From Ruminococcus sp. (GTDB taxonomy: Bacteria > Bacillota > Clostridia > Oscillospirales > Ruminococcaceae), in contig JAGAQC010000032.1 of the NCBI GenBank assembly GCA_017622925.1, positions 1-55,770 of the forward strand: a stretch of 55,770 nt of DNA, read 5' to 3'. The position numbers and the translations under genes were made by a program. This document shows, one piece after another, positions 1,330 through 45,782 of the stretch (position 1 is the first letter of the stretch; each line of letters starts with the position of its first letter). Under the pieces are notes generated by a model. It had not been told where the DNA came from. It made no database searches and worked only from the letters and a program-made list of their open reading frames with translations.

Positions 1330-1527
1330 GGATATTGTCTCCTGTATTTTCTGTTAAAGAGATAATTCTTGGTGTCCGTTCTCGTGAATTGGACTGTGGG
1401 AATCATGGAGACTAACAGTATCGCAATAATTTGAGGATTTCCACAGCCCAATTCACGACAACAGAGATTCCAAAGGGGTCACCCCTTTGGCAGGGGGTGT
1501 GGGGGACAGCGTCCCCCACTAAAGTTG
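1330..1527 (+). repeat. hairpin-cassette element, copy 1 (stem type A)
   Basis: This is one of seven copies in the window of a non-coding element with conserved outer parts and a variable inner stem. In order: a small hairpin at 1358-1371 (AAGAG/TTCTT with a 4-base loop), a 23-bp stem with arms at 1382-1404 and 1436-1458, a perfect CCAAAGGGG/CCCCTTTGG hairpin, then GTGGGGGAC/GTCCCCCAC. It ends 38 bases before the next gene and lies in the same orientation, so it would be in that gene's leader if transcribed from upstream. Confidence 0.85.
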
Positions 1528-1564
1528 GAGACAGTGGTTAAAAAATATTTTGGAGGTTTATATT

Positions 1565-2251
1565 ATGGCATATTGTAAATTCTGCGGCAAGGAACTGGGT
1601 GAGGACGGCAAATGCACCTGCGCCGAATTCGGAGACTATGAAAAAAACTCGGGCGTTCTCAGCGGTACTGTTGAACAAACTGCCGACAAACCCATAAAAA
1701 GAGGCAGTATCTTCAAATTTATCTGCATTGCCGCGGTCGTTATTCTTGTTATGGTAATTGCGATCTGCATAGTTTCCGCCGTAAACTCGTATAAAAAGCC
1801 CATATCCACGCTTGCTAAGGGCATTCGCAGAGCCGATACGGAGCTTCTTATCGAATCAATGTATACCGAGTCCACGGCGGCTGAACTTCGTCTACAGGCT
1901 AAGGACAACGGTCTGACGTGGAAAGACTACCTCAAAAAGAACGACAAGGCTATCGAGTCGGCTATGGACGGTCTCGGCGTAAAGCGTGTAAAGGCAGAGG
2001 TTCTTGCAAAAGAAAAACTCAGCGGAAGCAATCTGGACAACGTTGAAAATTTTTACGAGGACAACTACAATGTCGATGTTAAAAAGGCTTATCGTGTGGA
2101 AGTTGAGTTCACTCTAAAGGTCAACGGCGAAAAAACGACACGCACCGGTTGGCTCTGCGTTGCCAAGCTCAAAGGCGAGGGTTGGAAATACTGTCCTCAG
2201 TGCAGCTCGGATACGTTCGATTTTCTTGACGCAGCCGTTAATTTTGACTAA
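1565..2251 (+). CDS. zinc-ribbon single-pass membrane protein of unknown function
   Basis: The 228-residue protein begins MAYCKFCGKELGEDGKCTC, a short zinc ribbon with CxxC and CxC pairs. A transmembrane helix follows at about residues 49-71 ('FKFICIAAVVILVMVIAICI'). The remaining ~155 residues would be outside and resemble the small alpha/beta (NTF2-like, DUF4878-like) domains found on Firmicute zinc-ribbon membrane proteins; that is a fold guess. The ATG at 1565 was chosen over an upstream in-frame TTG because GGAGG (1553-1557) is 7 bases before it. It follows a hairpin-cassette element and ends in its own terminator. Function not recognised. Confidence 0.75.
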   Translation: MAYCKFCGKELGEDGKCTCAEFGDYEKNSGVLSGTVEQTADKPIKRGSIFKFICIAAVVILVMVIAICIVSAVNSYKKPISTLAKGIRRADTELLIESMYTESTAAELRLQAKDNGLTWKDYLKKNDKAIESAMDGLGVKRVKAEVLAKEKLSGSNLDNVENFYEDNYNVDVKKAYRVEVEFTLKVNGEKTTRTGWLCVAKLKGEGWKYCPQCSSDTFDFLDAAVNFD

Positions 2252-2271
2252 GAGCCAATGACTAAAAAATA

Positions 2272-2300
2272 CTGCCGAGGCTGTCGCTTCGGCATTTTTT
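2272..2300 (+). terminator. intrinsic terminator after the zinc-ribbon gene
   Basis: A GCCGAGGC/GCTTCGGC stem with a short loop is followed by six T residues. It sits between the zinc-ribbon gene and the AEC gene. Confidence 0.75.
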
Positions 2301-2312
2301 GGGAGTTTTAAT

Positions 2313-3242
2313 ATGTCGGGTATAATTTTAAACCAAACTGTAATAATGCTTCTTCTCATGCTGGTCGGCATTCTTTGCAGTAAAACCAAAATAATCAGCT
2401 CGTCCGCCAACAGAGAACTGTCAAAATTCGTGCTTCAAGTGGTCAACCCTGTCGTGATATTCATGTCATATCAGACCGAGCTGCAAAGCGAACTGGTGAA
2501 AAATCTCCTCATAGCTTTCGGATTATCGGCTGCGGCGTTCGCCGTAATGATATTGGCTTCATATCTGCTTATCCCGAAAAAAGAGGGCAGGGAAACGGCG
2601 ATAGAACGCTTTTCGGCGATATACTCCAATTGCAGCTTTATGGGCATTCCCCTTGCAAGGGCGATGTTCGGCATGGAGGGCGTATTTTACCTCACCGCGT
2701 TCATAACCGTGTTTAACCTCATTGTGTGGACTCACGGCATAATTCTCCTCACAGGCGAACGGGATATGAAGCAGGTCTTAAAAGTTTTCTACTCCCCCAC
2801 CGTTATTGCCATAGTTCTGGGACTTATTGCGTTTTTCACTCAATTCAAGCTTCCCGAACTGCCTGCAAAGGTCCTTACATATATTTCGGAACTCAATACG
2901 CCGATGGCAATGATAGTTTCGGGAGTGAGCATGGCTGAAACCAAGGTCGCAGACATGATAAAAAATCTCGGAGTATACCGAACGTGTTTTATACGGCTTG
3001 CTATACTTCCCGTAATACTCGCCCTCGGACTGTCGTTTCTGCCCGTCAGCGAAAAGGTCGTACTAACGGTTTTAGTGGCAGCTTCAGCGCCTCCTGCGGC
3101 TATGTGTACGCTTCAATGTCTCCGTTTCGGGAAAAATTATTTATACTCATCGGAAATTTTTACCGCAGGAACGATCATCTCCGTTGCTACCCTCCCGTTA
3201 GCGGTGAAATTTACGGAATATTTAACAAAAATAATAAGTTAA
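2313..3242 (+). CDS. AEC-family transporter (auxin efflux carrier type)
   Basis: This 309-residue protein is almost entirely hydrophobic, with about ten predicted membrane helices. It matches the layout of bacterial AEC transporters (the MleP/MdcF/YfdV group), which move organic acids such as malate or malonate, or amino acids. Recognisable parts are the N-terminal 'LNQTVIMLLLMLVGILCSK', the 'NCSFMGIPLARAMFG' helix break near residue 110, and the C-terminal 'ASAPPAAMC' segment. A GGGAG precedes the ATG. No neighbour indicates the substrate. Confidence 0.85.
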   Translation: MSGIILNQTVIMLLLMLVGILCSKTKIISSSANRELSKFVLQVVNPVVIFMSYQTELQSELVKNLLIAFGLSAAAFAVMILASYLLIPKKEGRETAIERFSAIYSNCSFMGIPLARAMFGMEGVFYLTAFITVFNLIVWTHGIILLTGERDMKQVLKVFYSPTVIAIVLGLIAFFTQFKLPELPAKVLTYISELNTPMAMIVSGVSMAETKVADMIKNLGVYRTCFIRLAILPVILALGLSFLPVSEKVVLTVLVAASAPPAAMCTLQCLRFGKNYLYSSEIFTAGTIISVATLPLAVKFTEYLTKIIS

Positions 3243-3309
3243 GTTTGTTAATAACGCTGATTTTTATAAAAATTAATAAAAAAAGGTTTTATTTTTATCG
3301 AATTTGTGT

Positions 3310-3315
3310 TATAAT
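3310..3315 (+). promoter_or_regulatory. probable -10 box of the ROK-regulator transcript
   Basis: A perfect TATAAT, but the -35 region (TTTTAT at 17 bases) is poor, suggesting a weak or activator-dependent promoter. It would create a leader of about 265 bases before the ATG at 3586. Confidence 0.45.
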
Positions 3316-3352
3316 ATAAATGTTAATCAGAGGAAGAATAATATTTTATTTT

Positions 3353-3585
3353 GCATTTAATAAATTTTTAATGCCCCCTGCCACGGCGATAAATTTTTAA
3401 AAGATATACATAAAATTTACTACGGCAGGAGAATTACGGCTTAGGCAGCGGACTTCGTTCCGCACAATATGCAAGTATTAATAATATTTTTCCTTGTAAG
3501 CCGCGTAATCTTTTTCTTTGGATTACTCCTCACAGTCTGCGTTTTAAGACTTGCGGCAAATACTAAAAGAAATGGAGTTTTTTAA
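3353..3585 (+). other. structured untranslated leader upstream of the ROK-type gene
   Basis: No gene is seen here. The sequence holds ordered inverted repeats: CCTGCC...TAAATTTT pairing with AAAATTTA...GGCAGG across 3374-3431; a short CGGA/TCCG hairpin near 3451; GTAATC/GGATTAC at about 3509-3530; and AGTCT/AGACT just before the RBS. No T-box signature and no riboswitch core that I know was recognised. It may be a regulatory leader of unknown ligand. Confidence 0.4.
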
Positions 3586-4806
3586 ATGGAAAAAAGAGGA
3601 ATCAGCAAGCTGGATCTCAAAAGACGCAACCGAATGCAGATCCTGCGTATTATCAGGGAGTACGGCCCTATTTCAAGAGTCGATGTGGCGAGCGCCCTTG
3701 AAATAACCCGTGCAGCAGTAACTATTATCACCAACGAAATGATCGAAGAAGGCGTTCTGGTCGAAATAGGCGAAGCTCCGATCAATGCCGAAAAGCTTCA
3801 AAAGGGCAGAAGAAAGATACTTATAGATATTAACGTGAACAGCCGTTTCGCTCTCGGAGCAACTGTTGACGAAAAGGAAGTCAGCGTTGGTCTTACCAAC
3901 CTCAATTCCGAAATTCTCGACAAATCGAGCATGATAATCGACGAGAGAACCACAAGCAAGGATATTATAAACTACATAATCAAGTCCTGCAACACAATGA
4001 TCGAAAATTCGGCTCTCACAAAGGACAAGATACTCGGTCTCGGCGTAGGCGTTGTGCCGTCAATGTGGGGCAAGCTGAAAATCTTCTACAAGGACGGCGT
4101 TCTTGACTTCTCAACCTTTATTGAAAAGCTTTCAAGCGGACTTGACGTTGATATTGACTGCGGAAACGCTATCGGTCTTATGGCTCTTGCAAGCAACGAT
4201 TTCAGAACTCAAAGCGGTTATCAGACGAACACCGCGTTCCTCCACAACGGCAATCAGGTCAACCTCGCTATCGTAAACAAGAACGAGCTGTCCAGCGATT
4301 ACGTTTCCTACACTTCGATGATAGAAAAATTCATCGTATGTCCCAACGGCAGAAGCTACGAGGGCTATCCCAACGGCTCGGTCAAGGCTGAACTTTCACG
4401 TTCCGCTATGCTTTCGGCTATCCTCGAGGTCTATTCAAAGGAAAAGACGCCGCTGCTCTGGGATCTTACCGAGGGCGACAAGAATAAAATTTCCATTGAT
4501 ACCGTTTTCATGTCGCTTATGAGAGGCGAAGAATCGGTCAAAACCGTTGTTGACGATATTATCGCAAAGTATACCGTACTTATCAATAATATCGCTATCA
4601 GCCACTTTGCAAAGAAGATCGTCCTCCATAACTACAAGCTCAACGAAAAGCAGTTCGATTACATCAAGCGTGAAATGATACGCCTTGTAAGCGAGGAGAT
4701 CGCCGACAGAGTAGTCCTCTCAAAGCTCGAAGGAAAGAACAATTTTCTCGGCGGCTGCGCGCTTATCATTCAGAACAACTTCTACACCAAGGGCGGTATG
4801 AGATAA
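3586..4806 (+). CDS. ROK-family transcriptional regulator (NagC/XylR type)
   Basis: A 406-residue protein with an N-terminal winged helix-turn-helix at about residues 14-62 ('QILRIIREYGPISRVDVASALEITRAAV'), typical of ROK repressors that bind operators until a sugar is present. The rest follows the ROK two-lobe fold ('FALGATVDEKEVSVGLTNLNSEIL', 'ILGLGVGVVP'). The ROK zinc-binding cluster (CxCGxxGCxE) is not visible, and the expected glycine-rich phosphate loops are poor, so it probably has no kinase activity and the effector pocket may have diverged. Start: ATG preceded by GGAG. No sugar operon adjoins it, so its target may be distant. Confidence 0.8.
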   Translation: MEKRGISKLDLKRRNRMQILRIIREYGPISRVDVASALEITRAAVTIITNEMIEEGVLVEIGEAPINAEKLQKGRRKILIDINVNSRFALGATVDEKEVSVGLTNLNSEILDKSSMIIDERTTSKDIINYIIKSCNTMIENSALTKDKILGLGVGVVPSMWGKLKIFYKDGVLDFSTFIEKLSSGLDVDIDCGNAIGLMALASNDFRTQSGYQTNTAFLHNGNQVNLAIVNKNELSSDYVSYTSMIEKFIVCPNGRSYEGYPNGSVKAELSRSAMLSAILEVYSKEKTPLLWDLTEGDKNKISIDTVFMSLMRGEESVKTVVDDIIAKYTVLINNIAISHFAKKIVLHNYKLNEKQFDYIKREMIRLVSEEIADRVVLSKLEGKNNFLGGCALIIQNNFYTKGGMR

Positions 4807-4833
4807 ATATTAGACCTTCCGAGAGGTCTAATC

Positions 4834-4866
4834 AAAAAAGCAGGGGATTCCGTTCCCCTGCTTTTT
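4834..4866 (+). terminator. intrinsic terminator after the ROK-type gene
   Basis: AGCAGGGG/CCCCTGCT stem with A-rich left flank and a T run on the right. A weaker TTAGACCT/AGGTCTAA hairpin lies just upstream. Confidence 0.85.
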
Positions 4867-4889
4867 ATTTGAAATAAAACAAATCCCGT

Positions 4890-4938
4890 CAGAACCACGA
4901 TATATCGCAGTTCCAACGGGATATTTTTTTGCAGACCT
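4890..4938 (-). terminator. terminator of the pspA operon (minus strand)
   Basis: Inverted repeat ATCCCGT...ACGGGAT with extra GAAC/GTTC pairing. Read on the minus strand it lies 27 bases past the stop of the 56-residue gene and is followed by a T-rich run. T residues also follow on the plus strand, so it may act both ways. Confidence 0.7.
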
Positions 4939-4964
4939 TTTACAGTCCTCTTTGATCAAAAGAC

Positions 4965-5135
4965 TTAAACGCCGCAGTCCTCGTAGTCCTTCCACTTTTC
5001 AAAGTAGATCTTATTGCTCCAACTCTTGTAAAGTATATACAAAATCGAAGCGACCGCAATGAACACAGCTCCTACGATAGGCAGGAACATATTCAGGACT
5101 CTGTTCGGATTAATGTCTTGATTTTTACTGCTCAT
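4965..5135 (-). CDS. 56-residue single-pass membrane protein downstream of pspA
   Basis: ATG at 5135, stop TAA at 4965. The peptide begins MSSKNQDINPNRVLNMFLP. Residues about 15-36 are a clear membrane helix ('MFLPIVGAVFIAVASILYIL'), and the C-terminus is short, charged and ends YEDCGV. The gene starts 3 bases after the pspA stop, on the same strand and before the shared terminator, so co-transcription and translational coupling are likely. I do not recognise the family. By analogy with other psp loci, where small membrane proteins (PspB/PspC, LiaI) recruit or regulate PspA, it could anchor PspA at the membrane; that is inference. Confidence 0.7.
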   Translation of the reverse strand: MSSKNQDINPNRVLNMFLPIVGAVFIAVASILYILYKSWSNKIYFEKWKDYEDCGV

Positions 5136-5138
5136 AAA

Positions 5139-5816
5139 TTATTCTGCTGCTCCGCCGTTCATCTCAGCCATCAGTCTGGCGAGTTCGGCGTCTACTTTTG
5201 CATCCTTTTCGATTTGGTCGAAGGATTCGACAAGCTCATCGTCATTTCCGCCTATCTCTGCAAAAGCGTCAGCTTCTGCCTCCTTACGCTGTATCTTTTC
5301 TTCCATACGGTCAAACTTTTCCAACGCGCTTGCTCCGTCAAATCCGCCCTGAGATTTAGCCAAAGCCTTTCTTGTATCCGCCATCTGAGAACGCGCGATA
5401 AGCATAGCCTGACGGGACTTTGCCTCGTCCAGCTTAGATTTCAGCACCTCTACCTGATCTTCGATAGCCTCGGTCTGAGTGCATATCGACTGATACATCT
5501 CCGTATATGCGGCAACGTCTTCGTCAGCCTTGACTTTCTTTGCCAAAGCCTGCTTAGCCATTTCCTGATTGCCCTGTGAAAGAGCAGCCTTAGCCTTAGA
5601 CTCCCAGCTCTGAGAAACCTTAACGGCATCGTCCATTTTCTTCTGCGCAAGACGCTCGCTTGCTTTAGCCTTTCCGAGATTCTGAGTAGCTATTGTAAGC
5701 TCTTTCTGCATGTCGATGATGATCTGCTTGACCATCTTCTCAGGATCTTCCGCCTTATCAAGAAGGTCGTTGATGTTTGACTTCAGAATATCACTTAATC
5801 TGCTGAATACTCCCAT
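5139..5816 (-). CDS. pspA: PspA/IM30 family envelope-stress protein
   Basis: A 225-residue, almost wholly alpha-helical coiled-coil protein. It begins 'MGVFSRLSDILKSNINDLLDKAEDPEKMVKQII', the amphipathic helix plus first coil of the PspA/Vipp1 (ESCRT-III-like) family. Such proteins polymerise on damaged inner membrane and preserve proton-motive force. No transmembrane segment is present. The ATG at 5816 was chosen over upstream codons because AGGAGG lies 6 bases before it. A consensus promoter and a 126-base leader precede it, and a small membrane-protein gene follows 3 bases after its stop. No pspF-like regulator is nearby. Confidence 0.93.
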   Translation of the reverse strand: MGVFSRLSDILKSNINDLLDKAEDPEKMVKQIIIDMQKELTIATQNLGKAKASERLAQKKMDDAVKVSQSWESKAKAALSQGNQEMAKQALAKKVKADEDVAAYTEMYQSICTQTEAIEDQVEVLKSKLDEAKSRQAMLIARSQMADTRKALAKSQGGFDGASALEKFDRMEEKIQRKEAEADAFAEIGGNDDELVESFDQIEKDAKVDAELARLMAEMNGGAAE

Positions 5817-5917
5817 TTTTAATCCTCCTGTTTCATGTGAGAGCCTGTTCGGAAGCTCCGCACGCACGGCGAAATACTGAACATGCTCTGAAAAATTTGT
5901 TGGACGGCACCCCTGTT

Positions 5918-5978
5918 TGAATGTAACCCTACATTCACGCCGTATTTATATTATACAGCATTTTTTATAGTTTGTCAA
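5918..5978 (-). promoter_or_regulatory. pspA promoter with hairpin in the early leader
   Basis: On the minus strand TTGACA (5973-5978) and TATAAT (5950-5955) have a 17-base spacer, a consensus match. Just inside the transcript lies a perfect 8-bp hairpin TGAATGTA/TACATTCA (5918-5937), which may stabilise the mRNA or be a protein site. Confidence 0.8.
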
Positions 5979-6015
5979 GGGATTTTCCATATTTTTTATA
6001 AATACCGATTACAAA

Positions 6016-7074
6016 TCAGTTACGAAGCTCCTTTTTGAAGTAGAGAGCCACCGGTTCGAGAGCCGACATTGAAATAAACACGCCCAGCGTACATATGAGC
6101 GAAACGGCGTATAGTACGACCACAAGACCCATACTGCCCTCGTGCTGCGGGATCATGACTATGCCGGGGAAAATCTGAGCAATGCTTGACACAAGGTAGA
6201 TCAGATTTGCAAGGGTCTTGAAAAATCCGATACCCGTCATAAGGGAAAGTCCCGAAATCGCCATGCCGAGTGCAAGGTACAGCGAAGCGTTTTTCAGTAC
6301 GTTTGCGATGCCGTCGATACCGTCTTTGTAGGTAAGTCCCAGCGAACCGCTGTAAAGCAGATAAAACGCGATCGCCGCAATAATTCCGACAACTCCCAGT
6401 AAAATACATATCTTAAAGCCCTTTGCAGCCATTTCGCGGCGGCGTTCTTCTTTAAGCTCCAGCATCATGCGAAGGCTCTCTTTAGAGTCCTTTTGGTCGG
6501 AAACGAGCTGCCCTGCAATGGCTTTTTTTGCCGCTTCACGTTTAGCTCGTTCCAAATCTTCGTCAACGTATTTCGGCTTGTAAGCAACAGTCTCAGGCTC
6601 GTCGTCCAGAACGGCAGCCTTTATCGGCTCATCGGACTGCGGTGGCTCGTGATTTTCTTTTTTCGGCGGCGGAGTGTAAGTGTCCTCGTCAAGAACGGGC
6701 GCTGTGACCTCCACGGGCGGAGCTTCAACTCCGAGCTGCTTTCTCATAAGTTCAAGAACCTTTTGGCGGTTAGCCTCGGGAAGATTATCGTAAGTCTCCC
6801 TCTGCTCGGGGGAAAACTTTTCTATTATCTCCTCGTCCGTCATTATTGTGACCTGCGGCTTTTTGTCCTCGTAAGGCTCTATGTCGTCGTCAAGTACAGG
6901 AGCTGAAACTCCCGTAGGCGCGCCCTTTTTGTGCGACGGCGGAGGGACGTAAGCGTCCATATCGTCCAGCACAGGTGCGGAAACGCCCGTAGGTCCGCCC
7001 TTTCTCGGCGCAGGAGCAACATAGTCTATGTCGTCCAGCACGGGCGGCGTAACGTTATTTTTTTCTTCGTTCAT
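6016..7074 (-). CDS. membrane protein with cytosolic 'APVLDD' repeats
   Basis: The 352-residue protein has a low-complexity N-terminal half and a membrane C-terminal half. Residues about 1-180 carry five degenerate copies of an acidic-proline motif, APVLDD/E followed by Y and PPP, two within near-identical 'KGAPTGVSAPVLDD' blocks. Near 95-115 lies 'FSPEQRETYDNLPEANRQKVLELM', which looks helical. About 222-345 contain four membrane helices. No signal peptide, so the repeats probably face the cytoplasm and could be docking or modification sites. RBS GAAGGTG precedes the ATG. The gene follows purA by 48 bases on the same strand. Function not recognised. Confidence 0.7.
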   Translation of the reverse strand: MNEEKNNVTPPVLDDIDYVAPAPRKGGPTGVSAPVLDDMDAYVPPPSHKKGAPTGVSAPVLDDDIEPYEDKKPQVTIMTDEEIIEKFSPEQRETYDNLPEANRQKVLELMRKQLGVEAPPVEVTAPVLDEDTYTPPPKKENHEPPQSDEPIKAAVLDDEPETVAYKPKYVDEDLERAKREAAKKAIAGQLVSDQKDSKESLRMMLELKEERRREMAAKGFKICILLGVVGIIAAIAFYLLYSGSLGLTYKDGIDGIANVLKNASLYLALGMAISGLSLMTGIGFFKTLANLIYLVSSIAQIFPGIVMIPQHEGSMGLVVVLYAVSLICTLGVFISMSALEPVALYFKKELRN

Positions 7075-7122
7075 CTGTTCACCTTCTTTTTTATTGATTC
7101 GAGAGCCAATATCGCTCTAAAA

Positions 7123-8397: not shown

Positions 8398-8449
8398 TAT
8401 TAAAAACCTCATTCCTTTTTTATTGAGAGACTGTCGATCTCCACACTTT

Positions 8450-8478
8450 ATTATATCACAGTATTAAATATATTTCAA
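8450..8478 (-). promoter_or_regulatory. purA promoter
   Basis: Minus-strand TTGAAA (8473-8478), 17-base spacer, TATAAT (8450-8455). Confidence 0.75.
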
Positions 8479-8525
8479 GTACTTATTTGCAAAAAACACG
8501 GAAATTAATTTTTAATGTTATGACA

Positions 8526-8760
8526 GGAAGCTTACGCAGGGGGACTCTGTCCCCCTGCACCCCCTGCCAAAGGGGTGACCCCTTTGGAATCTCTGTTGTC
8601 GTGAATTGGACTGTGGCAATCCCCAAATCTGCACGATACTGTTAGTCTCCATGATTACCACAGACCAATTCACGAGAATAGACGCCAAGAATTACCCCTC
8701 TAACAGAAAGTAAAAGGAAACAAAATCTTCTGTATAAGTTTACTGTAAATCTTAAAATTG
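8526..8760 (-). repeat. hairpin-cassette element, copy 2 (stem type A)
   Basis: Same architecture as the copy at 1.3 kb, on the minus strand: GC-rich hairpins at 8536-8585, and a 23-bp stem with arms 8599-8621 and 8653-8675. The inner pairs differ from copy 1 but still mostly pair. It lies upstream of the purA promoter, in the same orientation as purA. Confidence 0.85.
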
Positions 8761-8779
8761 ATTTTCGCAAAAAAATGCT

Positions 8780-8860
8780 CTCCCCGAACTTTTTTCGGGG
8801 AGAACTGCTTAGATTTATATAGTCAACTTAAGCGGTTTTTGTCCCCCGACTTAAGTTGTC
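8780..8860. other. hairpins between two oppositely oriented cassette elements
   Basis: The gap between copies 2 and 3 holds a perfect TCTCCCCGAA/TTCGGGGAGA hairpin (8782-8806) and an inverted repeat CAACTTAAG/CTTAAGTTG (about 8824-8858). No gene is seen. Confidence 0.5.
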
Positions 8861-8870
8861 TGAAATTTAG

Positions 8871-9069
8871 CGGATATTGTTTTCTGTATTTTCTGTTAAA
8901 GAGGTAACTCTTGGTGTCCATTCTCGCGAATTGGACTGTGAAAATCATGGAGACTAACAGTACCAAATTAATTCGGGGATTTTCACAGTCAAATTCACGA
9001 CAACAGAGATTCCAAAGGGGTCACCCCTTTGGCAGGGGGTGTGGGGGACAGAGTCCCCCACTTAAATTG
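8871..9069 (+). repeat. hairpin-cassette element, copy 3 (stem type A)
   Basis: Plus-strand copy whose stem arms at 8923-8945 and 8977-8999 carry the GTGAAAATC/GATTTTCAC variant where copy 1 has GTGGGAATC/GATTTCCAC, so both arms changed. It ends 31 bases before the stop of the convergent dockerin gene. Confidence 0.85.
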
Positions 9070-9099
9070 CAGATAATGCTTGGGGACGGATTTGACCGT

Positions 9100-12267: not shown

Positions 12268-12320
12268 TATAAAAACTCCTTTTTCATGAAATTCGCAAAT
12301 TGATTTTCTCTATGGTTATG

Positions 12321-12353
12321 ATTATATACTACTTGTCTTAAAATAATCTTAAA
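12321..12353 (-). promoter_or_regulatory. promoter of the large dockerin gene with possible response-regulator site
   Basis: A minus-strand TATAAT (12321-12326) lacks a good -35. In its place are two direct repeats, plus-strand TCTTAAA at 12336-12342 and 12347-12353, spaced 11 bases. That spacing is characteristic of OmpR/PhoB-family activators bound next to RNA polymerase. Confidence 0.45.
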
Positions 12354-12462
12354 GCTTCGGCATATTTTGAGAAAATTTCAGAACTTGCTGTCCGTCCCTC
12401 GCGTACAAGCGTATTCACCAAAAAAACACTTCGGGCAGGTTTATTTTCTGTATTTATGCCAA

Positions 12463-12491
12463 TTGATTTTTGACCGGATTTGATATATAAT
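12463..12491 (+). promoter_or_regulatory. aspartate kinase promoter
   Basis: TTGATT (12463-12468), 17-base spacer, TATAAT (12486-12491). No lysine riboswitch is visible in the short leader. Confidence 0.7.
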
Positions 12492-12539
12492 AAGTATTGT
12501 TATAAAAATAACAACATTTCTTATTAAGGTGGATATATT

Positions 12540-14568: not shown

Positions 14569-14689
14569 TGATTTCTCCTTTAGCGTTATAATGACAAAGA
14601 CAATATTCAGACTACCACTATCCACAACTTAATAATTTCTTTTTCTTTATTAAAGTCACAATATACCGTGTCCTTAATAAGGGAACGCC

Positions 14690-14912
14690 CTCTCTTGCAG
14701 GGCGCACTTCGTGCCGTCCCCTCTGCCCTTCGGGCATCTCCCCACCCGTGGGGAGTCACCTCTTTCCCAACAGTCATGCTGACTGTTTGGAAATTCACCC
14801 TTTGCGGAGCGCTTAAACGCTATGCAGGGCTTCGCCCCGCACCCCACCAGAGGCTCTGCCTCTGGACTCCGCCAAAGGGACACCGTCCCTTTGGAATCCC
14901 GATGTTAGTTCG
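14690..14912. repeat. palindromic repeat family B, copy 2, with extra hairpin modules
   Basis: 14808-14912 matches the family B unit at 0.1 kb (CCAGAGGC..GCCTCTGG, CCAAAGGGAC..GTCCCTTTGG). Its left flank, with GGCGCACTTCGTGCC, GCCCTTCGGGC, CCCCACCCGTGGGG and AACAGTCATGCTGACTGTT hairpins, matches in part, inverted, the flank of the copy at 49.2 kb, which lacks the first three hairpins. It lies in the trkH-trkA gap. No gene. Confidence 0.8.
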
Positions 14913-14931
14913 CTTAAGTTGTTGACAATAA

Positions 14932-16351: not shown

Positions 16352-16371
16352 GCATTTTATGCAACTTAGTT

Positions 16372-16625
16372 GGATATTGTTTCTCATATCCTTTGCCAAA
16401 AGGTAATCTTTTGAACCCTATATCGTAAATTTTACTGCATAAAGCCATAAAAATATTGGTTTGGATTTATATGGCAGGCTTTATGCAGGAAAATTTACGA
16501 CAACAGAGATTCCAAAGGGGTCACCCCTTTGGCAGGGGGTGTGGGGTGACTCCCTACAGTGTAGGGAGATGTCACGAAGTGACAGAGGGTACGGGGCGGT
16601 TAGCCGGCGTCCCCCACTAAAGTTG
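16372..16625 (+). repeat. hairpin-cassette element, copy 4 (stem type C, with extra module)
   Basis: The conserved frame is the same but the inner stem is different: arms TCGTAAATTTT.. (16423-16446) and ..AAAATTTACGA (16477-16500). The small 5' hairpin is CAAAAG/CTTTTG instead of AAGAG/CTCTT, keeping its GTAA loop. The 3' GC stem is extended by about 63 bases containing CTCCCTACAGTGTAGGGAG and GTCACGAAGTGAC hairpins. It ends 13 bases from the stop of the convergent GH13 gene. Confidence 0.85.
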
Positions 16626-16637
16626 CAGACAGTGATT

Positions 16638-26980: not shown

Positions 26981-27012
26981 AAAGAGCCGCATTTGATGTG
27001 CGGCTTTTTTTA
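26981..27012 (+). terminator. intrinsic terminator of the P-type ATPase gene
   Basis: AGCCGCA/TGCGGCT stem followed by seven T residues, 20 bases after the stop region. Confidence 0.85.
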
Positions 27013-27026
27013 TTTATCATAACAAA

Positions 27027-27221
27027 GCAGGGGGACGCTGTCCCCCTGCGCCCCCTGCCAAAGGGGTGACCCCTTTGGAATCTCTGTTGTCGTGTAGTTG
27101 TCCGCATAATGCCCTTATTATTTTCCGAAACTTTTTTCAGCATGGCATTATGCGGAAAACTACACGAGAGCGGACACCGAGAGTTACCTCTTTAACAGAA
27201 AATACAGGAAACAAAATCCTC
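27027..27221 (-). repeat. hairpin-cassette element, copy 5 (stem type B)
   Basis: Minus-strand copy. The inner stem arms TCGTGTAGTTGTCCGCATAA.. (27089-27112) and ..TTATGCGGAAAACTACACGA (27143-27166) pair at 23 of 24 positions but differ strongly from type A. The outer frame (CCAAAGGGG hairpin, AACAGAAAATACAGGAAAC, GAGTTACCTC) is conserved. It lies past the 3' end of the O-antigen-ligase-like gene, same orientation. Confidence 0.85.
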
Positions 27222-27249
27222 TTGATTTGATAACATAAATACAATAGCT

Positions 27250-34771: not shown

Positions 34772-34783
34772 TGAGGTGAATTT

Positions 34784-36031: not shown

Positions 36032-36094
36032 CGAAAAATCCACAGAGATCGCTGAAATCGCTAATTTGTTTTATTTTTTATTAAGGAGATAATT

Positions 36095-37639: not shown

Positions 37640-37644
37640 TTTAA

Positions 37645-37673
37645 ATCCCCGTCCTTAGACGGGGATTTTTTCA
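37645..37673 (+). terminator. terminator of the proBA operon
   Basis: AATCCCCGTC/GACGGGGATT stem followed by a T run. Confidence 0.9.
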
Positions 37674-37700
37674 TTATTAACAATGGATTTTTGCTGCCGC

Positions 37701-39566: not shown

Positions 39567-39680
39567 GTTTTCCCTCTCCTTTTTATGAGATTTTTTCATA
39601 CTATTATCTTAGCATTTTTATGCCCGTTTGTCAAGATATTACTGATTTTTATTATGAAAATAAATTTTAAAGGCTTTATC

Positions 39681-39897
39681 GGAAACTTATGCAGGGGGAC
39701 GCCGTCCCCCTGCACCCCCTGCCAAAGGGGTGACCCCTTTGGAATCTCTGTTGTCGTGAATTGGGCTGTGGAAATCCTCAAATCTTCACGATGCTGTTAG
39801 CCTCCATGATTCCCACAGTCCAATTCACGATAATGGACACCAAGAGTTACCTCTTTAACAGAAAGTAAAGTGAAACAATATCCTCTGTATAAATTTT
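39681..39897 (-). repeat. hairpin-cassette element, copy 6 (stem type A)
   Basis: Minus-strand copy whose stem arms (39755-39777 and 39809-39831), read in element orientation, are identical to those of copy 1 at 1.3 kb, including the two imperfect positions. The loop is also nearly the same. It lies upstream of the GH5 gene, same strand. Confidence 0.85.
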
Positions 39898-39926
39898 CAA
39901 CAAACCTCTAAATTTGTTTTAATAAA

Positions 39927-39955
39927 AAAAGTCCGTATCATAGCAATACGGACTG
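39927..39955 (-). terminator. terminator of the alpha-xylosidase gene
   Basis: AGTCCGTAT/AATACGGACT stem; on the minus strand it is followed by seven T residues. A second GAAGC..GCTTC hairpin at about 39974-39998 precedes it. Confidence 0.75.
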
Positions 39956-40133
39956 TGATTCAAACGGAAACAGGAAGCAAGAAAGCCTTTCGGCTTCCCT
40001 CTCATGTCTTGCGTCCTGCTCCTGATTTTGTCATAAATTCAAGTTCATGACACTGTTAATATTATACAATATGAGCCGAAACAATAATACATTAATTTTC
40101 CGTTATTTTCCGACAAAATTCGGAGATAAACAA

Positions 40134-42449
40134 TTAATTTCTGATAACTTTAAGCCCCTGAGAGCTTTCAACGGTATACGGCTTATCCGTTCCTGAAACG
40201 GTCACGTAAACAGTATTGTTATGTCTTTCCGCTCGTATCTCCGCCGCAAGCCTTGCATTCTTATCGTATACAACGGTTTTTATCGCCATGCCGTCCTCTA
40301 TGCCGTATACCACGATATTCATGTTGTCGGCGTAATCGTATTCAACGGACTTTTCAAAGTTTCCGTAGACTATTATGGAATTCGGCTTTGCATAAAGGGG
40401 CATTCCGAAATAATCATATGTTTTAACGTACCAACGACCGCCTGCGAGTTCTTCGCCCGTCTGAATATCCGTCCACGTACCGCAGTCGGGGAGGTAGAAG
40501 CTGCATTCGCCGCTTTCGCTGAACACGGGAGCTACAAGAAGAACGTCCCCCAGCATATACTGCGTATCAACGGTAAGAGCGGCGCGGTCGTACCCAAAAT
40601 CCACGACCATTGCCCTCATCATCGGAACGCCTGTTTTATGAGTTTCAACGGCATTGCGGAAAAGATACGGCATAAGTCTGCCCTTGAGCTTTACAAAGTG
40701 ACGTGAAACGTCGCAGCTTTCCTCATCGAAGTTCCACGGAACTCTGTAGGAGGAGTTGCCGTGATAGCGTGAGTGAGTGGACATAAGTCCGAACGCCGTC
40801 CAGCGTTTGTAAAGGTCGGGAGAGCCTGTCGCTTCAAAGCCCGAAATATCATGGGAGAAAAAGCCGAATCCCGAAAGACAGAGGGAAAGTCCTCCTCTGA
40901 GAGTTTCCCACATTGATTCGTAATTTGAGAAGCAGTCCCCTCCCCAATGCACGGGGAACTTCTGACCGCCGACAGTTGCCGAACGCGCAAAAAGACAGGC
41001 GTTCTCCATGCCCTTGACCTCCTGCAGCGCCTCGAAAACGGTCTTATTATAAAGGTATGAATAATAGTTGTGCATTTTGTACGGGTCTGAGCCGTCAAAG
41101 TACATAACGTCTGTAGGTATCCTCTCGCCGAAATCGGTTTTGATAGCGTCAACGCCAAGCTCCGCAAGCTTTTTTATCTGACCGCCGTACCAACTGCGCG
41201 CCTCGGGATTTGTAAAGTCGATAATGGCAAGTCCCGGCTGCCAAAAGTCGCACTGGAACACCGAGCCGTCCTTATTTCTGATGAAATAGCCCTTTTCCAT
41301 ACATTCATCGAAAACTGCCGCGCGCTGACCCACGTAGGGATTTATCCACACGCAGGTTTTCAGTCCCCTTGCTTTCAGCCGTGAAATAATGCCCTTTGGG
41401 TCGGGGAACATATCCTTATCCCATTCAAAGCCGCACCATTGAAACTCTTTCATCCAGAAGCAGTCAAAGTGGAACACCTCCAGCGGAATATCACGGCGTT
41501 CCATTTCGTCAATAAAGGACATGACGGTTTTTTCGTCATAGCTTGTGGTGAACGAGGTGGACAGCCAAAGCCCGAAAGTATACGCAGGCGGAAGCGCAGG
41601 TTTTCCCGTAAGGTCCGTATAATTTTTCAGCACGTCCGCAACCGTTTCGCCGCCGAAAATAAAATACTCCATTCGCTGTCCCTGAACCGCAAATGCGACC
41701 TTTGAAACGGTTTCCGAAGCGACCTCGAACGCGACCTTCCCCGATTCGTTTACGAAAACTCCGTAACCTCTTGACGATACGTAAAACGGGATAGACTTAT
41801 AGCTCTGCTCGGAACACGTTCCGCCGTCGTTGTTCCAGACCTCGACCGTCTGACCGTTTTTCACGAACGTTGAAAACTTCTCGCCGAAGCCGTAAATATA
41901 CTCTCCAACGCTTATGCCCAGCATTTCGCGGATATAGGCGTTTTCTCCGTTGTCCGACCGCTCAAAGAAACGAGTTCCCACCTCCGAGAGCCGCTTATTT
42001 CTGCTGAACCACTCCTCCTCCTGAACGAGAGAGGTCGTATGCCACCCCGATTTTGTGAGAAGTCTGTCCTCATACCAGTAAGAAACTTTCCAGCCGCCGC
42101 CCTGCGCGCCTACCCTGACTTTGGTTTTTCCCGAAATAAGCTCGTATCCGCCTTTTTCGGTTTTTCGCACGGTCGGCTTGAACGTCGTATCTTCGTTAAG
42201 GGAAAATTCGGGGGACTTCCTCAACGCTCCCTTAAAATGCTCGATAGATACTTTTATGCTGTTTTCAAGAGTTGAAGTAAATCTGACAGTGAGCATAGGT
42301 CCGCCTAATGTCATGCCTCGGTTGCCTATCCATTGATTGGTTGCGTATACCGTTATCGAGCTGTCGTCCGCTTCAACGGTATACATCTGCGTAGCGTAGT
42401 CAACGCTGTAACCCGACTTGTTCAGCCAGAAGCCGTCCGAGATCTTCAT
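40134..42449 (-). CDS. yicI: GH31 alpha-xylosidase (YicI type)
   Basis: A 771-residue cytosolic enzyme that removes non-reducing alpha-1,6-xylose, for example from xyloglucan oligosaccharides. Catalytic nucleophile is Asp in 'AIKTDFGERIPTDV' (about 439 by my count), followed by 'YFDGSDPYKMHNYYSYLYNK', diagnostic of YicI-type alpha-xylosidases rather than alpha-glucosidases. Also visible are 'FHFDCFWMKEFQW' and the 'VHWGGDCFSNYESM' region. Length equals E. coli YicI (772). No signal peptide. A perfect promoter lies upstream, divergent from the CNNM gene. Together with the GH5 enzyme it suggests xyloglucan use. Confidence 0.95.
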   Translation of the reverse strand: MKISDGFWLNKSGYSVDYATQMYTVEADDSSITVYATNQWIGNRGMTLGGPMLTVRFTSTLENSIKVSIEHFKGALRKSPEFSLNEDTTFKPTVRKTEKGGYELISGKTKVRVGAQGGGWKVSYWYEDRLLTKSGWHTTSLVQEEEWFSRNKRLSEVGTRFFERSDNGENAYIREMLGISVGEYIYGFGEKFSTFVKNGQTVEVWNNDGGTCSEQSYKSIPFYVSSRGYGVFVNESGKVAFEVASETVSKVAFAVQGQRMEYFIFGGETVADVLKNYTDLTGKPALPPAYTFGLWLSTSFTTSYDEKTVMSFIDEMERRDIPLEVFHFDCFWMKEFQWCGFEWDKDMFPDPKGIISRLKARGLKTCVWINPYVGQRAAVFDECMEKGYFIRNKDGSVFQCDFWQPGLAIIDFTNPEARSWYGGQIKKLAELGVDAIKTDFGERIPTDVMYFDGSDPYKMHNYYSYLYNKTVFEALQEVKGMENACLFARSATVGGQKFPVHWGGDCFSNYESMWETLRGGLSLCLSGFGFFSHDISGFEATGSPDLYKRWTAFGLMSTHSRYHGNSSYRVPWNFDEESCDVSRHFVKLKGRLMPYLFRNAVETHKTGVPMMRAMVVDFGYDRAALTVDTQYMLGDVLLVAPVFSESGECSFYLPDCGTWTDIQTGEELAGGRWYVKTYDYFGMPLYAKPNSIIVYGNFEKSVEYDYADNMNIVVYGIEDGMAIKTVVYDKNARLAAEIRAERHNNTVYVTVSGTDKPYTVESSQGLKVIRN

Positions 42450-42508
42450 AATATATAAACTCCCTTTTTAATTTTGGTGCGATAAGCTTCACAAAATATT
42501 GCAGTAAT

Positions 42509-42537
42509 ATTATAGCATATCAATTTATTAATGTCAA
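42509..42537 (-). promoter_or_regulatory. alpha-xylosidase promoter
   Basis: Perfect minus-strand TTGACA (42532-42537), 17-base spacer, TATAAT (42509-42514). Confidence 0.9.
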
Positions 42538-42624
42538 CCACTGTATTGACTTTTGTATGCGTAAAGAAAAAGTAGGCGAACATAAATACAAATTGTAGGG
42601 GACGGGAAATTTTTTAAAAATCTG

Positions 42625-42653
42625 TTGACAAAAATCTGAGATCATGTTATAAT
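42625..42653 (+). promoter_or_regulatory. promoter of the CNNM/CorC gene
   Basis: Perfect TTGACA (42625-42630), 17-base spacer, TATAAT (42648-42653). It gives a 210-base leader. Confidence 0.9.
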
Positions 42654-42712
42654 AAGAGAGTTAAGGAAATTAACACAAGACAATTTCGGTTATTGAAAGG
42701 GTGAAATTTTTA

Positions 42713-42796
42713 ATGGACAGTACCCCCGATGGGTGTAATTCCAAAAAAACCAAATATTGCTGTTCAGGGCATGGACTGTACTGTTTTTTGCGTTAG
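42713..42796 (+). CDS. 27-residue Cys-rich leader peptide (candidate)
   Basis: ATG at 42713 with GAAAGGGTG about 10 bases upstream, TAG at 42794-42796. The peptide MDSTPDGCNSKKTK... contains four cysteines, including a Cys-Cys pair. It spans a possible terminator: ACAGTAC (42717-42723) pairs with GTACTGT (42778-42784) and is followed by six T residues inside its last codons. Position between promoter and the CNNM gene fits a translated attenuator. Translation is not proven. Confidence 0.4.
   Translation: MDSTPDGCNSKKTKYCCSGHGLYCFLR
42717..42790 (+). terminator. possible attenuator in the CNNM leader
   Basis: A 7-bp ACAGTAC/GTACTGT stem with long loop and a T6 tract, lying between the promoter and the structural gene. 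The long loop makes it weaker than a usual intrinsic terminator. Confidence 0.4.
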
Positions 42797-42871
42797 TACG
42801 GTTTGTGCCTTTTCGTAGTTGCTGAACAAATATGAAGTTTTTTTCTGAATTTTAAAGAGAGGTTATTTTTT

Positions 42872-44191
42872 ATGATATGGCAGATAATTCTGCAAATTGC
42901 GCTTATTGCGCTGAACGCTGTTTTTGCGTGCGCGGAGATAGCGGTTATTTCGGCAAATCCCACAAAAATCGACAAATTGGCTGACGAGGGCAACAAAAAA
43001 GCCGTTCGTCTGAAAAAACTGACGGAAGAACCTGCAAGATTTCTTGCTACTATTCAGGTAGCAATTACACTGTCGGGCTTTATCGGAGCTGCTTTTGCGG
43101 CGGATAATTTTGCCGACAAGATAGTACAATTGACTGACAATGCAGGATTTGAGGAATATTCGGGCATTTTGAAGCCTGTGGCGGTCGTGGTCGTTACCCT
43201 GATACTTTCGTACATAACGCTTGTATTCGGCGAACTCGTCCCAAAACGCGCGGCTATGAAAAATCCCGAAAAATTGGCGTTGTCAATGGCTAAGGGGATA
43301 GGCGCTGTACAGACGATGTTCGCTCCGCTTGTATGGATGCTCAATATCTCAACAAACGGCGTTTTGAAGCTCATGGGCATTAATCCCGAGGACGAGGAGG
43401 AGACCGTTACCGAGGAAGAAATAATAATGATGTCCGACGCAGGCGCGGAAAAGGGAACTATAGACGAGGACGAAAATCGTATTATAAAGAATGTTTTCGA
43501 GTTTGACGACCTTACGGCTGAACAGGTCTGCACTCACCGAACCGATGTTGTTATTCTGTGGAGTGAGGACACTATAGAGACATGGGAGGAGACAATACAT
43601 CGCACACGTCACTCGCTTTTCCCTATATGCGGCGAATCGGTGGATAATGTCATAGGAATACTCAACGCCAAGGATTACTTCCGCCTTGAGGACAAGAGCC
43701 GTGAGAATATTATGAAAAACGCTGTAAAAGAGCCGTATTTCGTCCATGAGAACATGAAAGCAGACGTACTTTTCGCTCAGATGAAAAAACGCGGCAGTCA
43801 TCATTTTGCGGTGGTTGTTGACGAATACGGCGGAATGACGGGAATCGTCACGGTTACGGATCTTGTGGAGGAGCTTGTGGGCGACTTTGACGACGATGAG
43901 CTGAACCGTCCCGAACCTCAGCTTAAAGAGATCGGCGAGAACCGCTGGATAGTTCCCGGAATCACGGGTCTTGACGAGGTATGCGAGGCTCTCGGTATCG
44001 TTCTCCCCGTTGAGAAATACGATACTTTCGGAGGTTACGTTATCGCAGGTCTCGGGGAGATTCCAAAAGACGGCTTGACCGCCGAGCTTGACTGCGACGG
44101 ACTTCATATCGAGATACTTAAAATTTATCATCACAGGGTCGAGATATGCCGTGTGACAAAGTTGGAGCAGAACAATATTGATAGCGAATAA
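42872..44191 (+). CDS. CNNM/CorC family membrane protein (DUF21-CBS-CorC_HlyC)
   Basis: A 439-residue 'hemolysin-like' protein. The N-terminal DUF21 domain (about 1-180) has four hydrophobic segments; a tandem CBS pair follows (about 200-335, 'VCTHRTDVVILWSEDTIETWEETI', 'HHFAVVVDEYGGMTGIVTVTDLVEELVG'), then a C-terminal CorC_HlyC domain ('LKEIGENRWIVPGITGLDEVCEALG'). Family members are linked to Mg2+ or Co2+ efflux and to Na+-coupled transport; the 'hemolysin' name is historical. RBS AGAGAGG. Followed by a terminator. Confidence 0.93.
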   Translation: MIWQIILQIALIALNAVFACAEIAVISANPTKIDKLADEGNKKAVRLKKLTEEPARFLATIQVAITLSGFIGAAFAADNFADKIVQLTDNAGFEEYSGILKPVAVVVVTLILSYITLVFGELVPKRAAMKNPEKLALSMAKGIGAVQTMFAPLVWMLNISTNGVLKLMGINPEDEEETVTEEEIIMMSDAGAEKGTIDEDENRIIKNVFEFDDLTAEQVCTHRTDVVILWSEDTIETWEETIHRTRHSLFPICGESVDNVIGILNAKDYFRLEDKSRENIMKNAVKEPYFVHENMKADVLFAQMKKRGSHHFAVVVDEYGGMTGIVTVTDLVEELVGDFDDDELNRPEPQLKEIGENRWIVPGITGLDEVCEALGIVLPVEKYDTFGGYVIAGLGEIPKDGLTAELDCDGLHIEILKIYHHRVEICRVTKLEQNNIDSE

Positions 44192-44212
44192 TATTAAAAA
44201 ACAGGACTAAAA

Positions 44213-44262
44213 AACAGGACTGTTACGGTAATAAAACCGCGGCAGTCCTGTTTATTTTTTTA
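44213..44262 (+). terminator. terminator of the CNNM gene
   Basis: AACAGGACTG/CAGTCCTGTT stem followed by a T-rich run that overlaps the last codons of the convergent gene. Confidence 0.8.
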
Positions 44263-44701
44263 ATTTTAGATAATAAGATATTAAAAAAATTGCTGTCGGA
44301 GCAAGTGAAAGCGGCAGCATGAGCCATATCTGAGCTTCCGTCAAAGCGGCTGATGAAGCGTCGGAATTGATAAAATTAAATATTTGTAAAAAATATCCGT
44401 TGATAAGCTTGTGCCAACGATAAAAGTCAATATCCGAGAATTTCAGTATCAGCCAGCTTATCAATGCAGGCAATGAGGCGGAAATTCCCATAAGGAGCGG
44501 CATGACCGAGGACGGCTTTTTTTCGTCCTCCTCAGCCGTTTTTGAAGCAAAGCTGCCGAGAACGCATATAAGTATCCCCGAGGTGCAGACTGCGGATATT
44601 ATTCGCGCGACCATGCCCGAGGAGACTGCAAGAGTAAGTCCGATAAAAAGAGAAAGCAGGTCGGCGGCGAGAACCGTTACAAGGGTTTTTAAAATTTTCA
44701 T
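44252..44701 (-). CDS. 149-residue four-helix membrane protein
   Basis: A small integral membrane protein with about four hydrophobic helices (8-30, 35-52, 66-88, 122-145) and a short charged cytoplasmic loop 'ASKTAEEDEKKPSS'. The end 'SYYLKLKK' is basic. RBS AAAGGC is weak. It is convergent with the CNNM gene and its upstream region is a MITE-like palindrome. No family recognised. Confidence 0.65.
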   Translation of the reverse strand: MKILKTLVTVLAADLLSLFIGLTLAVSSGMVARIISAVCTSGILICVLGSFASKTAEEDEKKPSSVMPLLMGISASLPALISWLILKFSDIDFYRWHKLINGYFLQIFNFINSDASSAALTEAQIWLMLPLSLAPTAIFLISYYLKLKK

Positions 44702-44740
44702 AAATTAGCCTTTTGAATAATTCGCATGTTTTGTGAAACA

Positions 44741-44901
44741 ATATAGTAACCCTACTTGAAAACCAAACAAGTTCACTGATAAAAATTCCCCATAGCAGCG
44801 TTGTCGTCGTCACCGTGCGACAGCACGCTTTCCTCCTCCGCCTTGCTATGAAAAATTTTTATTCAGTTCCTTTTGTCTGCTTTCCAAGTAGGCTTACTAT
44901 A
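44741..44901. repeat. MITE-like long palindrome
   Basis: Ends TATAGTAACCCTACTTG and CAAGTAGGCTTACTATA pair at most positions. Inner segments continue to pair (CACTGATAAAAATT with AATTTTTATTCAGT, CATAGCA with TGCTATG), and the centre holds a CGTGCGACAGCACG hairpin also found at 23.07 kb. No coding content. The whole can fold into one 160-base hairpin. Confidence 0.75.
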
Positions 44902-44918
44902 AAACAGAGGTGAGAATT

Positions 44919-45017
44919 ATGACAGATGAAGATATGAAGATATACATTCCGCGCCCGACAGACGCAAAGGAAACAGCCGAGGAAACGGACGAGGTAAAGG
45001 TCTACACAATACAATAA
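44919..45017 (+). CDS. 32-residue acidic peptide (candidate)
   Basis: ATG at 44919 with GAGGTGAG 5 bases upstream, TAA at 45015-45017. It begins MTDEDMKIYIPRPTDAKETA and ends EVKVYTIQ; acidic and soluble. It lies just outside the MITE-like palindrome and is convergent with the Fur-family gene, ending 11 bases from that gene's stop. A strong RBS argues for translation. Unknown function. Confidence 0.5.
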   Translation: MTDEDMKIYIPRPTDAKETAEETDEVKVYTIQ

Positions 45018-45027
45018 AGTTAGATTT

Positions 45028-45450
45028 TCAGACTTCCTCGGACGCTGCACAATCGGCGCACCGTCCGTAAAAGACGGTTTGCGACGTATCAATAATAAAG
45101 CCGTGATTCTGAGAAATATGGCTGCTTATGTCCGTAAGGCGGCTGCATCTCAGGTGAATGAGCTTTCCGCAGCTCAGGCATTTCAAGTGGAAATGTTCAC
45201 GGCATTCCTTTTCGTTTTCAACGTACTGGAAGCAGGCGGAGGTCTTGCCGTCGATAATAAATTTACGGACCGTGCCTGCTTCTACAAGGCGTTCAAGCTG
45301 TCTGTAAATAGTCGCCATTCCCACAGGTGAGCCGACAGAGCGGAGGTACGCTTCAATTTCCTGCGCGCTTGTGTGCTTGTCCTTGTTTTGTATCAGAAAT
45401 TCGAGCAGCTTTTCTTTTTGCGCGGTGTTGTAACCAAACTCTTTTTTCAT
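45028..45450 (-). CDS. Fur-family metal-responsive regulator
   Basis: A 140-residue protein with the Fur winged helix ('AQKEKLLEFLIQNKDKHTSAQEIEAYLRS...VGMATIYRQLERL') and a C-terminal dimerisation domain with the His-rich 'REHFHLKCLSCGKLIHL' and structural zinc cysteines CLSC and CADC. It could be Fur, Zur or PerR; the metal cannot be told from the sequence alone. The RBS is unusual, a run of seven G residues 6 bases before the ATG. Cassette copy 7 lies 36 bases upstream on the same strand. Confidence 0.92.
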   Translation of the reverse strand: MKKEFGYNTAQKEKLLEFLIQNKDKHTSAQEIEAYLRSVGSPVGMATIYRQLERLVEAGTVRKFIIDGKTSACFQYVENEKECREHFHLKCLSCGKLIHLRCSRLTDISSHISQNHGFIIDTSQTVFYGRCADCAASEEV

Positions 45451-45486
45451 AAAGTACCCCCCCGATCAATTTTTAAAGTTTTTACA

Positions 45487-45782
45487 GGAAACTTACGCAG
45501 GGGGACTCTGGGCTAACCGCCCCGTACCCTCTGTCACTTCGTGACATCTCCCTACACTGTAGGGAGTCACCCCTGCACCCCCTGCCAAAGGGGTGACCCC
45601 TTTGGAATCTCTGTTGTCGTGTAGTTGTCCGCATAATGCCCTTATTATTTTATGAGACTTTTTTAGACATGGCATTATGCGGGCAACTACACGAGAATGG
45701 ACGCCAAGAGTTACTTCTTTAACAGAAAGTAAAGTGAGACAATATCCTCTGTATAAATTTACTGCAAATCTTAAAATTAATT
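45487..45782 (-). repeat. hairpin-cassette element, copy 7 (stem type B, with extra module)
   Basis: Minus-strand copy. Stem arms 45617-45640 and 45670-45693 are type B, like copy 5. The 3' GC hairpin is extended by the same roughly 65-base module as in copy 4 (GTCACTTCGTGAC and CTCCCTACACTGTAGGGAG), at the same position. It lies in the leader region of the Fur-family gene. Confidence 0.85.

Follow-up and report, generated by a model that had tools for sequence, protein, structure and literature searches.

Miniature inverted-repeat transposable elements (MITEs) of prokaryotes are short, carry terminal inverted repeats (TIRs) and direct repeats, are mobilized in trans by insertion sequences (ISs), and give transcripts that are predicted to form stable stem-loops, as set out in a portion of PMC10969869. 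A related group consists of the BOX, RUP, and SPRITE repeats of Streptococcus, which are high-copy interspersed repeats. The relevant portion of PMC3049150 describes BOX as modular and the TIRs of RUP as those of an IS, and a folded RNA has been proposed. Here a family of hairpin-bearing repeats from an uncultured Ruminococcus is compared with these systems. Seven copies lie in one 55,770-nt stretch of DNA (the window), contig C76 in a draft genome of 2.5 Mb (G000).

The Ruminococcus family follows the short, TIR-bounded, IS-linked plan outlined for MITEs in that portion of PMC10969869. It differs from that general description in that one core occurs in two types of outer ends (shells), with two lengths of target duplication, and in that its long stem is compensated copy by copy. 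The likeness to BOX, RUP, and SPRITE lies in high copy number, modularity, TIRs shared with an IS, and a proposed folded RNA. The terms "compensat-" and "covari-" are absent from the main text of PMC3049150, and no interchangeable palindromic stems are described in the portion concerned. The bcr1 element of the Bacillus cereus group is likewise mobile and repeated, and its predicted secondary structure is conserved (a portion of PMC2267715 and general knowledge); it differs in its host and is set apart by description, not by sequence. ERIC and Correia elements are also MITE-like with structured transcripts (a portion of PMC10969869 and general knowledge), and they live in other hosts and are likened by description. 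REP/REPIN elements, which are short tagged palindromes with a REP-associated tyrosine transposase, are set apart by description too, and the 9–10-bp duplications and long TIRs of the present family speak against such an assignment. No description of this family was found in the open-licence literature, most subscription journals being outside the scope of that search. The family is best read as a MITE, an element of a known kind, in a new and unusually informative form whose hairpin core is structurally selected and exchangeable. The probability that this holds as a whole, with shells of the TIR1 type linked to an IS4-family element, an exchangeable core, and a stem under selection for pairing, is put at roughly two-thirds.

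The original prediction had placed seven copies in the window, and the exact 3' core ACGACAACAGAGATTCC was found seven times at those places, whereas chance would give 0.11 per window when as many as 3 mismatches are allowed. The 5' motif is present within 3 mismatches in six of the seven. In each of the seven stems, 18 of the 19 variable positions are paired, G.U included. When the flanking TCGT/ACGA is counted, copy 3, with a 5' arm beginning TCGC, has 21 of 23 positions paired and each of the other six copies has 22, in line with the minimum of 21 that had been claimed. Folding z-scores of three single copies against dinucleotide shuffles were -6.0, -8.8, and -6.4. The recurrent mismatch that had been noticed near the middle of the stem is also real: with G.U left aside, 59 of the 71 mismatches lie in columns 55–57, which correspond to stem pairs 10–12 (105 rows of types A, B, C1, and C2; 21 pairs). 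The three stem versions first described (A, B, and C) are present, but the genome holds more, namely A, B, C1, C2, and others in L036, L271, and L272. Covariation claimed for the small 5' hairpin turned out to be weak, with 83.7% of its cells paired (106 rows) and the GTAA loop kept in 56 of 66 type A/B rows.

The rest of the genome multiplies these observations. The exact 3' core occurs 94 times in G000, split 45 to 49 between the two strands, and a control gave none. An alignment (A1) of 106 distinct copies was assembled from the stretches around these cores and from related sites in the same genome. In its long helix (helix 3), 95% of cells are paired, and both sides have changed at 15 of 23 pairs. 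The whole-structure covariation score is 0.236, compared with 0.112 after shuffling and at most 0.116 for slid partners. In other words, base-pair covariation of the stem exceeds the controls. Could the arms simply be terminal repeats of unrelated inserts, as the original prediction allowed? The stem arms are internal, and the TIRs form a separate outer pair. Furthermore, left and right TIRs of one copy are no more alike than shuffled ones (identity 0.768 versus 0.767 for TIR1 and 0.778 versus 0.772 for TIR2), and the copy-by-copy covariation is therefore special to the stem. This copy-specific compensation supports the earlier proposal of a selected single-stranded structure. At the pair that closes the last GC hairpin, G.T occurs 7 times and A.C never, and this was not used as evidence; two of the seven are joins to foreign sequence, and some of the other five may be deletions. 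Rfam 15 gave no match at the gathering cut-off for the window and 5 loci, and matches below the gathering score in 10 further loci, mostly to microRNA precursors, were taken as chance. The window contains no transfer RNA or transfer-messenger RNA, and the exact core pattern was found in none of the viral contigs.

The same architecture recurs in relatives. Model R1 has matches at E 0.001 in 29 of the genus's 125 genomes (its own included), and copy numbers per genome are lower bounds because no more than 23 candidates were scored in each. Four of these relatives (G112, G089, G086, and G031) share the architecture with a loop of 3–8 nt and a stem that differs copy by copy. An alignment (A2) of 40 relatives' elements, 35 from these four genomes and 5 from others of the genus, shows both sides changed at 17 of 18 stem pairs and a score of 0.481, against at most 0.112 for slid partners. 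It holds 40 of the 44 stems found, leaving out L113, L120, and L123, whose frames differ by eye, and also, through a misreading of the position of its match, L117, which is the same element as L173. In G089 alone, 49 copies were read and 47 stems were distinct, with 831 Watson-Crick cells, 13 G.U, 4 A.C, and 16 others. Beyond the genus, model R2 matches at least 34 of 394 genomes of the order at E 0.001 (its own included; no more than 10 candidates scored in each), most of them weakly. Among 17 loci from the order, 14 were shown near the match, and these mostly have only the 3' GGGATTCCAAAGGG hairpin module in common, with other stems alongside. The whole element is therefore not claimed beyond the genus. 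The sister genome G064 has 27 motif hits with a slightly wider pattern, compared with the 94 exact cores in G000, which suggests a recent burst in the lineage of the window. A longer core matched exactly in 25 stretches of a named genome collection that may omit the window's own genome. All 25 come from one uncultured Ruminococcus draft genome, presumably that of the sister.

The copies are non-coding, non-autonomous DNA transposons, i.e., MITEs, in which matched TIRs, of two kinds or more across the family, enclose a chain of hairpins. They are short and non-coding and occur in high copy number, and they have TIRs, a target duplication of fixed length, and empty sites. Matched ends were recognized in 73 of the 106 copies: TIR1 at both ends in 46, TIR2 at both ends in 24, and other matched pairs in 3. 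No copy among the 106 was classed as a TIR1/TIR2 hybrid; in the other 33, one or both ends went unrecognized or the ends mix with the weak T3/T4 classes. Lengths range from 224 to 306 bp in TIR1 elements and from 269 to 275 bp in TIR2 elements. The extent first drawn was too small, as an element spans ~225 bp in the TIR1 shell and ~272 bp in the TIR2 shell, and ~55 bp more where the last GC hairpin holds an additional hairpin cassette. Target duplications were analyzed in the 52 TIR1 and 17 TIR2 elements with both ends found and enough flank. The TIR1 duplication is 10 bp (mean 6.58 of 10 matches versus 4.12 shuffled), with no comparable signal at lengths 7–9, 11, or 12, and the TIR2 duplication is 9 bp (4.94 of 9 versus 2.61). 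Duplications are perfect in 8 of the 52 and 2 of the 17, respectively. More direct evidence comes from six sites compared with the sister genome, which were picked because BLAST gave a gap there. Three of them are clean empty sites (L079/L140, L016/L151, and L033/L161), of the kind that the original prediction had suggested looking for; two others (L067/L156 and L058/L162) are not clean in the alignment. The non-autonomous mobile element that it had listed as one possibility is thus supported by TIRs, 10- or 9-bp duplications, and empty sites.

Two observations on the shells stand apart. At L042/L144, the sister has merely a short TIR2-to-TIR2 piece in place of the full element, and this piece suggests an internal deletion or a core-less precursor. 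A 30-bp TIR1 remnant with an apparent direct repeat of the target around it (L093:1590-1619) is perhaps a collapsed element.

What mobilizes the elements? Several contigs of G000 stop just inside a TIR1 copy. At one such contig end, L095 encodes the start of a transposase beside TIR1, and contig C43 encodes the last 37 residues of a transposase adjoining TIR1, with 73% identity to that of a relative. In genome G018, the whole 445-residue relative matches PF01609 and the IS4-family model NCBIfam NF033592 (139 bits; cut-off 115), and its gene is flanked by TIR1 ends and a 10-bp duplication, as judged by eye. TIR1 ends are thus common to the MITE and to an autonomous IS4-family element, which is whole in G018 and has both ends present in G000 with its middle unassembled. 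The two share TIR1 and the 10-bp duplication and differ in their interiors, as the transposase gene spans the IS nearly end to end and the ends read have no hairpin core. The hairpin core is therefore not an IS remnant, and an origin of the TIR1 MITE as an internal deletion derivative of the IS4 element was rejected on the same ground. TIR1 copies would be moved in trans by the IS4-family transposase, and TIR2 copies would be moved by another transposase. The TIR2 pattern has 23 sites, one of them near the start of contig C15, where ~160 bp inward from the TIR2 end are present before the contig breaks off, with no gene visible by eye in them.

One and the same hairpin core is found in both shells, with almost free reassortment between them. 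By left end, type A cores divide into 25 with TIR1, 22 with TIR2, 5 with T4, and 10 unrecognized. A core tree was built from 54 type A copies whose shell had been classed, and 49 of them enter the TIR1/TIR2 test; it shows 14 changes of shell, compared with 16.4 (standard deviation 1.8) after shuffling, and 44 of 300 shuffles gave as few. The closest of the 49 compared cores show 3 differences; they sit 686 bp from each other and were assigned to different shells. Likewise, at L045/L154 the flanks are orthologous and both the 5' frame and the stem version differ between the two species. Dispersed copies may swap cores through recombination or through gene conversion. The gene-less interior is in this sense bound to no single transposon type.

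How is complementarity of the arms kept? The long stem would be kept by selection for base pairing, most likely in a + strand RNA. The weak spot at pairs 10–12 would be tolerated, and the stem sequence would drift while complementarity stays. Evidence for a strand comes from the kinds of imperfect pair. In type A outside pairs 10–12 there are 41 G.U against 4 A.C, in the relatives 11 against 0 (36 distinct stems of the 40), and in G089 13 against 4. A + strand C>T mutation bias as the source of the G.U excess was rejected, since unpaired columns show no excess of C>T (2.5% of C cells, compared with G>A in 7.0% of G cells and with 6.2% for A>G and 5.2% for T>C).

Several results weigh against this picture. 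With pairs 10–12 included, type A has 42 G.U and 26 A.C (21 pairs), and over all 23 pairs it has 42 and 28 (p 0.12). The excess is absent in type B (0 versus 3), C1 (5 versus 11), and C2 (1 versus 2) and in the small 5' hairpin (27 versus 21 in the 66 type A/B rows), and all G.U/A.C tests overstate because cells share ancestry. At six insertions shared with the sister (24 sister elements parsed), 15 base pairs have changed: 5 are double compensations, 4 are moves to or from G.U, and 6 are mismatched in one species. L045/L154, with its differing stem versions, accounts for three of the 15. Pairing is thus best described as favored, not rigidly kept. Crude open reading frame (ORF) calls exist on both sides of 96 of the 106 copies; both ORFs run against the element in 41, both run with it in 28, and they converge in 16 and diverge in 11, which gives no clear orientation bias to host genes among these 96. 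The regulatory leader that had been suggested finds no support in these calls. No promoter or terminator was established within the element, and no transposase for TIR2 was found here. Selection on the + strand remains probable from these sequence comparisons, with moderate support and an uneven strand signal. As for a role, it may be guessed that a folded transcript would protect or insulate transcripts crossing an insertion and so make insertions tolerated.

An unlikely alternative, and the one that fares best, is that the constraint acts on a DNA hairpin or cruciform, for example in transposition or replication, rather than on RNA. G.T is less disruptive than A.C in a DNA hairpin as well, and the strand asymmetry missing from types B, C1, and C2 and the lack of a clear orientation bias to genes would both fit it. 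The asymmetry in type A points to one strand, which argues against this account, and no fixed single strand is expected because IS4-type transposition is expected to proceed on double-stranded DNA.

Somewhat more doubtful is an account in which the core is a self-standing module passing between shells and its stem is written in two ways: both arms by template switching in species with 3–8-nt loops, and base by base in the species of the window, where loops are ~30 nt. If true, this would put both modes of compensatory evolution side by side in one mobile family. Its starting point is shared with a slightly less likely view, that replication template switching copies arm onto arm and so makes perfect stems without selection on an RNA. 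Template switching has been proposed to create and maintain RNA hairpins (a portion of PMC8794818). Double and single changes were counted in disjoint pairs of elements, binned by identity of the 5' frame, with pairs of more than 6 differing base pairs dropped. At identity 0.9–1, doubles and singles number 11 and 6 in G089, where loops are short, against 28 and 58 in G000, where loops are ~30 nt (p 0.026); at 0.8–0.9 they number 18 and 14 against 42 and 82 (p 0.025). Without pairs 10–12, the contrast loses significance, with 23 doubles and 33 singles in G000 at identity 0.9–1 (p 0.10) and 40 and 46 at 0.8–0.9 (p 0.41). Transversions among doubles are still more common in G089 (19 of 29) than in G000 (24 of 63 without pairs 10–12; p 0.024). 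Joint rewriting of arms in short-loop copies is thus possible and unproven, because the loop contrast weakens without pairs 10–12 and the transversion excess remains; whole-stem exchange between copies could mimic it. As a general explanation, arm copying should make no distinction between G.T and A.C, but G.U is more frequent than A.C in the relatives and in type A away from pairs 10–12. One-sided intermediates are common in G000 and present in G089 (L246 and L265 beside L177). The TIR arms of the same elements, though much further apart, are not homogenized, and a general homogenization of inverted repeats was rejected for that reason.

Gene conversion alone, in which stems are copied whole between dispersed copies and complementarity is inherited unselected, is improbable: it fits the differing frame and stem version at L045/L154 and the reassortment of shells and cores, but it leaves the origin of dozens of near-perfect stems unexplained (47 distinct of 49 in G089), and it is probably a contributing process, insufficient as a full account.

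The family also has a use beyond its own biology. RNAs compared over deep time are the usual material for asking whether paired bases change slowly, one by one, or in both arms together, a question that is still open. It is directly testable here because ~100 copies in one genome and at least 49 in a relative offer varied divergence, two shells, and, in a sister species, shared as well as empty sites. The hairpin copies are in effect a natural record of the joint evolution of paired bases.

Table 1. Elements of the family and a related element in the window (positions in nt)
Feature	Position	Strand	Arms of long stem	Shell and stem	Remarks
Copy 1, whole element	1312..1536	+		TIR1 shell, type A	Ends and near 10-bp duplication GTTATAAAAA/GTTAAAAAAT
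Copy 1, long hairpin	1382..1458	+	1382-1404, 1436-1458		
Copy 2, whole element	8497..8769	-	8653-8675, 8599-8621	TIR2 shell, type A	
Copy 3	8850..9065	+	8924-8946, 8978-9000	Diverged TIR1-like ends, type A	Outer limits approximate
Copy 4	16353..16634	+	16423-16445, 16478-16500	TIR1 at right, left end degenerate, type C1	No matching duplication; extra hairpin cassette in last GC hairpin
Copy 5	26995..27240	-	27145-27167, 27090-27112	Diverged ends, type B	Limits approximate
Copy 6	39650..39915	-	39808-39830, 39754-39776	TIR2 shell, type A	Outer limits approximate
Copy 7	45460..45785	-	45672-45694, 45617-45639	TIR2 shell, type B	Outer limits approximate; extra hairpin cassette in last GC hairpin
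Related element	14616..14931	+		TIR1; interior a chain of GC hairpins	Right end by eye; not counted in the original prediction

Other TIR1 elements have a different interior made of several GC hairpins. One is the related element of Table 1, and more are seen in L086-L090, L096, and L097; these interiors include the GGGATTCCAAAGGG module in the opposite orientation. A second cassette of ~59 nt, TGACTCCC...GTCAC...TTAGCC, sits in the tip of GGGG/CCCC hairpins (hairpin 2 or 3) in both orientations. It is found in the window at ~16547-16605 (+) and ~45511-45569 (-) and in L263, L264, L266, and L269, and in L266 and L269 it is apparently nested within itself. Finally, a longer sequence starting ATATGC adjoins such hairpins at four contig ends. 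In L018 and L019 the join lies at GTCCC of the last GC hairpin, and in L049 and L051 it lies at TCCCC of the inserted cassette. Like joins at GTCCC occur in G089 (L239 and L241), and the joined sequence appears to be an insertion sequence targeting these hairpins.

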